From positions 62,001-126,000 of IMG/VR virus record IMGVR_UViG_3300012988_000001: a DNA stretch of 64,000 nucleotides; one strand, 5' to 3'. This DNA is from a virus. Under the pieces are notes generated by a model. The model ran no database searches, was not told the origin of the DNA, and saw only the letters and a program-made list of their open reading frames with translations. A program made the position numbers and the translations under genes. Of this stretch, positions 18,428-34,458 are shown in pieces. The stretch's first letter is position 1. Each line of letters starts with the position of its first letter.

Positions 18428-18458
18428 TTGGGACAAACCCGAAATAATGTGATATAAT
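18428..18458 (+). promoter_or_regulatory. promoter (TTGGGACA family)
   Basis: TTGGGACAAAC with GGGACA at 18430-18435, a 17-base spacer and TATAAT at 18453-18458 within TGTGATATAAT. The expected start site near 18465 is only about 6 bases before the ATG at 18471, so the transcript would be almost leaderless. Confidence 0.7.
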
Positions 18459-29259: not shown

Positions 29260-29262
29260 TAA

Positions 29263-29285
29263 AAGCACCCATCGGGTGCTTTTTG
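29263..29285 (+). terminator. Rho-independent terminator
   Basis: AGCACCC and GGGTGCT pair around ATC, followed by TTTT. The same stem sequence is used after nrdG at 31684. Confidence 0.8.
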
Positions 29286-29318: not shown

Positions 29319-29332
29319 TTGATCTAGGTCAA
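29319..29332 (+). promoter_or_regulatory. FNR-type binding site upstream of nrdD
   Basis: TTGAT-CTAG-GTCAA differs from the FNR consensus TTGAT-N4-ATCAA at one position. Its centre (29325.5) lies about 42 bases before the start site predicted from the -10 at 29356, the classical position for FNR-activated promoters, and it abuts the -35 region. This predicts induction by the host anaerobic regulator. Confidence 0.6.
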
Positions 29333-29361
29333 GGGACAAAACGGGTTTTGGGTGATATAAT
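29333..29361 (+). promoter_or_regulatory. nrdDG promoter (TTGGGACA family, variant)
   Basis: GGGACA at 29333-29338, a 17-base spacer and TATAAT at 29356-29361, extended by TG. The bases before GGGACA are CAA rather than TTG-like, which may make it dependent on the adjacent FNR-type site. Confidence 0.65.
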
Positions 29362-31217: not shown

Positions 31218-31684
31218 ATTACCAAACAATAATTAAAGATGATTTAGTTAACGGGGAGGGCATACGTTGCTCTCTTTTTGTTTCTGGTTGTAGTCACGGT
31301 TGCGTTGGATGTTTCAATGAAAGTGCATGGGACTATAGATCAGGTTCAGAATATACCAAAGAAACTGAACAAATAATTCTAAATGAATTAAACAAGAAGT
31401 ACGTAAGTGGATTAACTTTATTAGGTGGAGATCCACTAATGAAGAAAAATATAGATGTAGTACTTAACCTTTGTAGAACAGTTAAAGAAAAATATCCAGA
31501 TAAGAATATTTGGTGTTGGACCGGATACACATTAGACGAAGTTCAATCAAATCATGCGAAAGACATATTGAAATACGTTGATGTATTAGTGGATGGGAAA
31601 TTTGAAGAGTCCCAAAAAGATTTAACATTACCGCATCGTGGTTCCCGAAACCAGAGAGTACTCAAACGTGGAATAGACTACTAA
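31214..31684 (+). CDS. nrdG: anaerobic ribonucleotide reductase activating protein
   Basis: Radical-SAM enzyme that creates the glycyl radical on NrdD. The C-x3-C-x2-C cluster motif is C-S-H-G-C-V-G-C at about residues 26-33, and G-G-D-P near 75 is the SAM-binding GGE-type motif. At 156 residues it matches T4 NrdG. ATGA overlap with nrdD implies coupled translation. Confidence 0.94.
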   Translation: MNYQTIIKDDLVNGEGIRCSLFVSGCSHGCVGCFNESAWDYRSGSEYTKETEQIILNELNKKYVSGLTLLGGDPLMKKNIDVVLNLCRTVKEKYPDKNIWCWTGYTLDEVQSNHAKDILKYVDVLVDGKFEESQKDLTLPHRGSRNQRVLKRGIDY

Positions 31685-31706
31685 GCACCCTATGGGTGCT
31701 TTTTTC
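31684..31706 (+). terminator. Rho-independent terminator after nrdG
   Basis: AGCACCC and GGGTGCT pair around TAT, followed by six T residues; it overlaps the end of the nrdG stop codon. Confidence 0.85.
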
Positions 31707-31713
31707 GTTTATG

Positions 31714-31723
31714 AATAAATATA
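31714..31723 (+). promoter_or_regulatory. candidate late promoter (T4 type)
   Basis: AATAAATATA, one mismatch from the T4 late core TATAAATA, about 30 bases before the fibre gene at 31753. The identical 10-mer stands before the minus-strand decoration gene (6734-6744). Confidence 0.45.
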
Positions 31724-31752
31724 ACAAGGATACCTTTAACTAAGGATATAAA

Positions 31753-34458
31753 ATGACTAAAAAGATATATGGCGGGATGGATGTTAAAAACAATCTAACC
31801 GCACAGGGTAACCGTACAGTACAAAGTATTGACGGAACAGCACTATTCGATAGTAATGGTAATATGTTACTTGATGGTTACACTCAACAAGAAATTAATG
31901 AAATCGTGGGGGTTCTCCCACTATCACACTATGGTACACATAACTATCTCCCTGCTGGTGTAAGTGGTGATTTCGTTGGTGCATCAGAAAACCCAAATTA
32001 CAGAAGAGTAAAAAACTTCATTGAAGATGATGGTACTTTTGTAGCATTACGTTCTGGGTCTAATGGTTCTACTATTGGACTATATTATTCGTACTTAACT
32101 GATATATTGAATAAAACCAATATTAGTACAACATCTGTCAATACAAATAAACAATATGCACCCGGATTTATCCCATCAGGAAGAAAAGTAGTTTCATGTG
32201 TTAGTACTGATGACAAAGTTTTATGCGGTCGAGTTACACTAGCAAACTCAGAAACTGTAGATAATTCTTTATTTTACACTTCCATGATGAATGGTACATT
32301 GGATGATTCACAACATACTGGTTTTATGATCAATGCAAGCACTGTACTTCCTGATGGTGGAGAACTAATTTATTGTATGCGTTTAAATGATGGCTCAATA
32401 TTGTATTTTGGATTGATTTCAGATGCAACACATTTTGATCTATCATTAGTTCAAGTAGTTTTCAATCAAAGTGCTGGTACATTTACGTCATCAAGAATAA
32501 CTGGTTTTAACGGATCGGTTTTCTATCCAATGACAAATACGAATAATATTAAAATTGCAGGTACTCGTTTAAGCTCGACCACTGCCGCACAACCATACCT
32601 TCTAACGGACCCGGCATTAGTTTCTGCTGAACCATTTATGGTTACGTATGATGTATTTGCAGTACAAGATACATCTGGTTCAATTCGTGTTCGTATAAAC
32701 GGAGACTGTTATGTTGCAACAACAACAGATAACATACGTCCACAACATGGATTTAGTTTTGTATTCAATCCAACTTCTAAAGTTGTTGCTTTGGATTCTG
32801 GATATGCACCAAGTGGGGCAGCACCAATGGTGTGTACTGTAACTTCAGGTGTACCTACGGTTACTGGAAATGTAATAACAACGGATGCATTTTATATTCA
32901 CCAAAGTACTGGTAATATCGGATGTGCATATTATTATACCAACTTGAATACCGCAATTTGCGTATATACTCGTAATTTACAATTACCACCAATTATTCAA
33001 ATTTGTAGATATAATACAAATATAACACCGTATCAAATGCAAAACTTTAAGCAATACACTGCCAATATTGAATCTGTCCAGACTGGCCTTTTAATTCAAT
33101 CTTTTGGGTCTATTATTGGTTCATATATTACCGGTACTGAATTGTTAACAAATACTAGTACTAAACAACTTTCAACTCAGGCCGATGGTAATATTGCAAA
33201 TAGTTATGCAATACATGGTTCTGCACCAACATTCTCATTCAAATCGGTAGATTTAGGAACAGTAAATGGATATCAACCAACAGTTCAACGTGCAGAGATA
33301 CCAAATAATAATTCATACAAAATGTTTATGACAACTGTTGATGGTTCAACTGTAACAGCAAATGGTGGCATTTTCGTTCAAGGTGTGCGTGAAAGTACTG
33401 CATTAACTTACAATGCTCAAGGTGGTGGAACTGGAACTATTACAGTTGATTCAACAGCATTGTTGAATTTCAAAAATTCCGAAGTTGCAAAGATGACATT
33501 TACAACTATATCACCAACAGCAAGTAAAGATTGTACATTATACGTACCTAGACAAAGTGACATGCCAGCGTTTGCTATCATAAGTACAGTAAACACCTCA
33601 TTACAATACGTTTATCGTTTAGTTGAAGTTAGTGTTAACACTAGAACTGGCAACATTACTACTATTACGTTTAATAGATTAGTACAGGAAGATGTTCGAA
33701 ATGCTAATCACTATGCTAATGTTCAGGCTAGTATTAGAAATTCTAGTACAGGTGTTACAATTTATAATGGTGGAACATTCTATTTTGTTGCTGGTGCAGA
33801 TCCAATGGTACGCCAAACAATCGGTAATGATTTAGGATTTTATTTCCGAGGTATTGTTAACAAAACCACTTCACAGTTTACACGTCTAGATGTTGATTAT
33901 ACATATACATCATATTCATCATCGTTGCAGCCGTTTGCATTACCGGGACAAGGTTTCGGAATATTACAGCAACAGGATTTAGCATGTAAGATGGTTTTCC
34001 GTTCGTATGGTACTACGATTGCTGATTATGATGCATGGACGGCGGTTGGTTCTCCAATCAACTTAGTATCTCAAGATGTTGCTGAAGGATTCATTGTTTA
34101 TTTCACAGAACCAACTCCAGTTATGTTAAGTGGTAAATCATTTACATTACCAGTTACTAGTATAGATTTAACAACTGTCACTGCATCCCCAGCTAATAAA
34201 ACATTTTATGTTTATGTACAAATGGTACAAGGTATTGCACGTTATACTATTAGTGAATCTGTAATTGCTGAAACTGGGACAACTGCATATAATCTATTCT
34301 GGATTGGAACAATACAAACCAATGCAACACAGATTACAAATATTAATGTACTAAAACGTTCAAGACTTGATATATTTGGTGAATCGTTAACTGCTGCGGG
34401 ATCATCATTCCCAGTAAGTTATGGAACACCAGCAGGTACTGGAACAATTAGTTGGTAA
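31753..34458 (+). CDS. putative virion fibre/adhesin, long paralogue 1 (901 aa)
   Basis: Probable virion appendage. The N-terminus K-K-I-Y-G-x-x-D-V-K-x-N-L-x-x-Q-G is shared with the next two genes, as is the C-terminal ~130-residue module (F-Y-V-Y-V-Q-M then I-G-T-I-Q-T-N-A ending in P-A-G-T-G-T-I-S-W). The middle ~650 residues are Ser/Thr/Asn-rich, beta-prone and poor in charged residues and cysteine, as in phage fibres. L-P-L-S-H-Y-G-T-H-N-Y-L-P and the S-G-S-N-G-S-T segment near 110 recur in paralogue 3. Host-receptor binding is inferred from composition and modularity only. Confidence 0.72.
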   Translation: MTKKIYGGMDVKNNLTAQGNRTVQSIDGTALFDSNGNMLLDGYTQQEINEIVGVLPLSHYGTHNYLPAGVSGDFVGASENPNYRRVKNFIEDDGTFVALRSGSNGSTIGLYYSYLTDILNKTNISTTSVNTNKQYAPGFIPSGRKVVSCVSTDDKVLCGRVTLANSETVDNSLFYTSMMNGTLDDSQHTGFMINASTVLPDGGELIYCMRLNDGSILYFGLISDATHFDLSLVQVVFNQSAGTFTSSRITGFNGSVFYPMTNTNNIKIAGTRLSSTTAAQPYLLTDPALVSAEPFMVTYDVFAVQDTSGSIRVRINGDCYVATTTDNIRPQHGFSFVFNPTSKVVALDSGYAPSGAAPMVCTVTSGVPTVTGNVITTDAFYIHQSTGNIGCAYYYTNLNTAICVYTRNLQLPPIIQICRYNTNITPYQMQNFKQYTANIESVQTGLLIQSFGSIIGSYITGTELLTNTSTKQLSTQADGNIANSYAIHGSAPTFSFKSVDLGTVNGYQPTVQRAEIPNNNSYKMFMTTVDGSTVTANGGIFVQGVRESTALTYNAQGGGTGTITVDSTALLNFKNSEVAKMTFTTISPTASKDCTLYVPRQSDMPAFAIISTVNTSLQYVYRLVEVSVNTRTGNITTITFNRLVQEDVRNANHYANVQASIRNSSTGVTIYNGGTFYFVAGADPMVRQTIGNDLGFYFRGIVNKTTSQFTRLDVDYTYTSYSSSLQPFALPGQGFGILQQQDLACKMVFRSYGTTIADYDAWTAVGSPINLVSQDVAEGFIVYFTEPTPVMLSGKSFTLPVTSIDLTTVTASPANKTFYVYVQMVQGIARYTISESVIAETGTTAYNLFWIGTIQTNATQITNINVLKRSRLDIFGESLTAAGSSFPVSYGTPAGTGTISW

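Follow-up and report, generated by a model that had tools for sequence, protein, structure and literature searches.

A conserved FNR-type site at the anaerobic ribonucleotide reductase promoter of a RaK2-like jumbo phage and its relatives

Results

The nrdDG unit

The DNA analysed here (the window, 64,000 nucleotides) is the stretch 62001-126000 of a 366,160-bp virus record (G000) that is related to jumbo phages like RaK2, CBB and 121Q. It contains the genes nrdD and nrdG, which overlap by 4 bases (Table 1). NrdD has both the NRDD and the Gly_radical domain and the radical-SAM protein NrdG adjoins it, as in a class III operon; NCBIfam and Pfam agree for both proteins, which bears out the identification of anaerobic ribonucleotide reductase in an earlier reading made from the letters alone (the sequence-only reading). 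The unit is preceded and followed by intrinsic terminators, so that nrdD-nrdG can be regarded as a unit of its own. Beyond it, GAATAAATATAA at 31713-31724, before a gene starting at 31753, resembles a T4-like late promoter.

Table 1. Features of the nrdDG locus, in window coordinates
Feature	Position	Strand	Basis or remark
Intrinsic terminator of the upstream genes	29261..29283	+	phage Munch has a terminator annotated at the corresponding place
FNR-type box TTGATCTAGGTCAA (reverse complement TTGACCTAGATCAA)	29319..29332	+	sequence; conservation in 18/18 jumbo-phage relatives; parsimony test
-35 region AAGGGACA	29331..29338	+	GGGACA (29333-29338) serves as -35 hexamer in the phage promoter family
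Extended -10 TGATATAAT	29353..29361	+	hexamer TATAAT at 29356-29361; predicted start site 29367/29368
TAAATAA	29376..29382	+	resembles the T4-like late motif ATAAATA of CBB
nrdD, anaerobic (class III) ribonucleoside-triphosphate reductase, 602 aa	29409..31217	+	TIGR02487, E 3e-163; Pfam NRDD, Gly_radical
nrdG, radical-SAM activating protein, 156 aa	31214..31684	+	TIGR02491, E 2e-59
Intrinsic terminator closing the nrdDG unit	31683..31701	+	

Promoter anatomy and the phage promoter family

The FNR-type box TTGATCTAGGTCAA has one mismatch to TTGATN4ATCAA, exactly as the sequence-only reading had described it, and is followed on its 3' side by GGGACA, a 17-nt spacer and TATAAT. The gap between the box and TATAAT is 23 nt, a sigma-70 -10 element at the distance that matches the class II layout. 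The centre of the box (29325.5) falls at -41.5/-42.5 relative to the start site predicted from the -10 element, in agreement with the position of about 42 bases claimed before.

The nrdD promoter is one of 29 genome copies of a family written TTGGGACA or TGTGATATAAT (WWGGGACA, 17 nt, TATAAT). With at most one mismatch, WWGGGACA-17-TATAAT is found 29 times in the window phage, 29 times in phage Munch (28 after removal of a lone unrelated reverse-strand match) and 30 times in one IMG/VR phage. The 29 places in the window phage are all on one strand, with -10 elements at 18450, 29353, 45635 and 55501 as examples in the window, and in the family shared with Munch and the IMG/VR phage TGTGA usually precedes the -10. 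In each of the three phages with 28-30 copies it is the nrdD copy only that reads AAGGGACA instead of TTGGGACA. The AA found before GGGACA in place of the usual TT closes the FNR box, which thus lies at the margin of a standard promoter of the phage. The weaker -35 surround noticed earlier is therefore real in the sense that nrdD is the sole copy among 29 with AA before GGGACA; the promoter retains a 10/12 match to sigma-70 together with the extended -10.

Conservation in RaK2-like jumbo phages

TTGATN4(A/G)TCAA was found in the nrdD promoters of 18/18 related jumbo phages, 83-96 bp before the ATG. The relatives are Salmonella Munch, Klebsiella fENko-Kae01, RaK2, KP13-7, Serratia BF, Erwinia SNUABM_47, Hallingskeid, Kaldavass, Pectobacterium CBB, Cronobacter GAP32, Xanthomonas XbC2, Escherichia 121Q and UB, and five IMG/VR genomes. 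The consensus is perfect in 16 of the 18, and GTCAA occurs in the window, 121Q and UB. The sequence-only reading had named conservation of the half-sites in related phages as a check on itself, and this conservation was found: TTGAT and TCAA are the same in all 19 promoters of the alignment, amid flanks that vary freely. By parsimony on the NrdD tree, the mean number of changes per column was 0.2 for the ten half-site columns and 3.34 for the flanks (Mann-Whitney p 2.7e-6). Because the ungapped columns in this test were lined up on the best match to the box, it leans somewhat in the box's favour; an unanchored MAFFT alignment gave the same conserved block at the box.

Box and -10 lie 22-23 nt apart throughout the jumbo group, a class II position. 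In CBB, GAP32, BF, Kaldavass and XbC2 the -10 is TATTTT or TATTAT and the distance is still 23 nt, and in two jumbo relatives (G004 and G005) the site is kept and the -10 is poor. A box with a TANNNT -10 at 20-24 nt precedes nrdD in 20/22 phage records. In the group of CBB, GAP32, BF, Kaldavass and XbC2 (L012, L014, L015, L016 and L017) the spacer between box and -10 is filled by a terminator-like CCCC/GGGG hairpin (TACCCC...GGGGTA, then T-rich). Phage CBB also has a perfect FNR box in its terminal repeat, apparently between genes (L103; 19295-19308 and 375218-375231).

A second conserved element, TAAATA, is present in 19/19 aligned nrdD promoters and, in the window, begins about 30 nt upstream of the nrdD start codon. 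It resembles ATAAATA, described as a T4-like late motif in CBB (PMC5259590), and may be an FNR-independent late promoter of nrdDG. If it is, FNR governs only part of nrdDG expression, and the earlier phrase "under host anaerobic control" may be true for only one of two promoters.

nrdD promoters in other phage lineages

Roughly 2,800 phage records carry nrdD. Three Aeromonas Plateaulakevirus records (L026, L107 and L108) have TTGATTTGAGTCAA, TTGATTTGGGTCAA and TTGATATGGGTCAA, all of the form TTGATN4GTCAA with varying centres and each 21 nt before TAAAAT. In Justusliebigvirus, TTGACTAAGATCAA lies 22 nt before TAAAAT upstream of nrdD. The phapecoctavirus site TTGATTTTCCTCAA, 22 nt before TAGAAT, adds weak support: part of it coincides with the T-run of a terminator, and the three copies hardly differ. 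No convincing layout was seen upstream of nrdD in phages of the T4, Felix, KVP40, Vequintavirus and T5 types and several other lineages that have the gene; a Sugarlandvirus site at about -70 and T5-type half-sites were given no weight as support. Four Vibrio T5-like phages (L041, L047, L048 and L050) have perfect boxes with varying centres about 75 bp before nrdD; these end 9 nt short of TATAAT and so overlap the -35, where repression would be expected. The lineages are not all independent since they are related in part, Phapecoctavirus and Justusliebigvirus belonging to the same subfamily. We lean towards the view that at least three lytic lineages (RaK2-like jumbo phages, Aeromonas Plateaulakevirus and Stephanstirmvirinae) independently put nrdDG under host FNR, using the host's oxygen sense for the choice of ribonucleotide reductase during infection.

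The class I enzyme

A class I ribonucleotide reductase is also encoded by the window phage (NrdA was identified). The one-mismatch FNR site closest to the class I genes, ATGATCTAGATCAA at genome position 236216, was rejected as a promoter site, being inside an ORF downstream of nrdA that is presumed to be nrdB. With no FNR site at their promoter, the class I genes appear to be FNR-independent.

Discussion

Could the palindrome be a chance match in AT-rich phage DNA? By itself the 14-mer is weak evidence because one-mismatch FNR sites are common: there are 11 in the window versus 6.4 expected, and 48 in the 366-kb genome versus 31 for a reversed-pattern control, and for the exact 14-mer the expectation is 0.36 occurrences per window. 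In the relatives, most of the other exact sites that were inspected resemble coding DNA. A scan of viral contigs for TTGATN4ATCAA-N21-23-TATAAT is uninformative on this point, giving, among the matches listed, mostly chance matches in coding regions and none upstream of nrdD. Against chance stand the location and the company of the site. A site this good or better within 150 bp upstream of nrdD has a shuffle p of about 0.02, which falls to about 0.002 when a TANNNT -10 at 21-23 nt is added; among 81 gene starts in the window only nrdD has the class II layout with at most one mismatch, and TTGATN4RTCAA-N20-24-TANNNT occurs a single time in the whole genome, at nrdD. The fixed -10 spacing and the retention of both half-sites amid freely varying flanks point the same way; half-site conservation across the jumbo group refutes the chance reading, which we consider scarcely credible.

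Even a genuine regulator site might instead serve a different CRP-superfamily member in the host, or a phage protein with a different fold. FNR, ANR and DNR have the box in common, our comparison is one of sequences, and a phage regulator outside PF13545 is conceivable. CRP was rejected as the binder, as it needs GTGA/TCAC and the sites here have TTGA/TCAA. A search with PF13545 (HTH_Crp_2, the CRP/FNR-type helix-turn-helix) gave no match in six of the phage genomes and matches in 14/14 control genomes, which makes an FNR homologue encoded by these six phages unlikely, and host FNR should be the binder. The recorded hosts of the phages are mostly Enterobacterales, bacteria that have FNR, and the enzyme encoded downstream can act only when oxygen is absent. 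We therefore judge a binder other than FNR to be improbable. The enterobacterial FNR consensus is TTGATnnnnATCAA (PMC3688515), and TTGACTTAAATCAA, with the same single mismatch as the reverse complement of the window box, gave FNR-dependent expression in E. coli (PMC7349173).

The remaining question is the direction of control. FNR might bind and repress or fine-tune, with nrdDG transcribed chiefly from the late promoter; the invariance of TAAATA in the aligned promoters, the abutment of the FNR box on the -35 and the repressing position in the Vibrio phages would all fit. The class II position, however, is an activating one at most FNR-activated E. coli promoters, FNR being at -41.5 +/- 4 in 19/23 directly activated promoters with a known start (PMC3688515), and shutting an anaerobic enzyme off without oxygen makes little biological sense, so we think repression or fine-tuning quite improbable.

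The earlier interpretation that FNR controls nrdDG is thus supported by the sequence comparisons, and we propose that host FNR or a close family member very probably activates the nrdDG promoter in the absence of oxygen. When oxygen is lacking, host FNR with its iron-sulphur cluster would dimerise, bind TTGATCTAGGTCAA centred near -42 and aid the host sigma-70 RNA polymerase at a promoter with a good extended -10 and a -35 region altered at the box end, and nrdDG transcription would rise. In the presence of oxygen FNR would be inactive and the promoter at its basal level, and dNTPs would be supplied by the phage-encoded class I NrdAB, whose genes have no such promoter site. The putative TAAATA late promoter may add FNR-independent transcription late in infection. 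Because of the 10/12 sigma-70 match and the extended -10, the nrdD promoter could also fire without FNR, and activation is perhaps modest.

The arrangement resembles the E. coli FNR class II promoters (narGHJI, nirBDC, dmsABC and nrfA), in which the box also precedes a -10 and has its centre near -41.5, as predicted for the phage site (Myers et al. 2013, PMC3688515); those are promoters of chromosomal anaerobic-metabolism genes, whereas here a phage gene is concerned and the box is inside a copy of the phage's own promoter family. E. coli nrdDG was reported to be FNR-activated, according to references given in PMC3458845 and PMC5645315, and in Pseudomonas aeruginosa a Dnr box TTGACGCAGATCAA lies 98 bp before nrdD (PMC5645315), the same enzyme with an FNR-family activator. 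Upstream of E. coli nrdDG we found two degenerate FNR-like sites, TTGAGCTACATCAA and TTGATGCAAAGCAC, 242 and 211 bp before the ATG, in contrast to the one near-perfect site at 83-96 bp in the phages, which is moreover embedded in phage promoter sequence. Boston and Atlung (2003) and Roca et al. (2008) are said to have placed E. coli nrdDG under an FNR-family activator. The differences in site number, distance and promoter setting suggest that the phage sites arose independently of those in E. coli. A gene of phage-host conflict is likewise tied to FNR and anoxia in Citrobacter rodentium, where the FNR-controlled gene is a bacterial defence gene, CRISPR-Cas (PMC12669028); here it is apparently a phage gene.

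A survey by Dwivedi et al. (2013) reported that most phages of facultative anaerobes carry class I and class III reductases (PMC3653736), and its main text makes no mention of FNR or promoters. The CBB paper describes promoters, with FNR not mentioned in its available passages (PMC5259590), and in a review on phages in anaerobic systems FNR comes up for hosts only. We found no earlier report of an FNR site at a phage nrdD in open-access titles and abstracts; such a search does not prove novelty.

Conclusions

Phage metabolic genes are usually viewed as cargo expressed on the phage's own timetable. The conserved site suggests that nrdDG is probably made mainly when the host is without oxygen, and the phage's own class I genes, which lack the site, would serve as a built-in control. 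If this is true, a lytic phage senses the oxygen state of its host through the host's own regulator, which would matter for research on phages in the gut and in other settings without oxygen, infection having mostly been studied with oxygen present.
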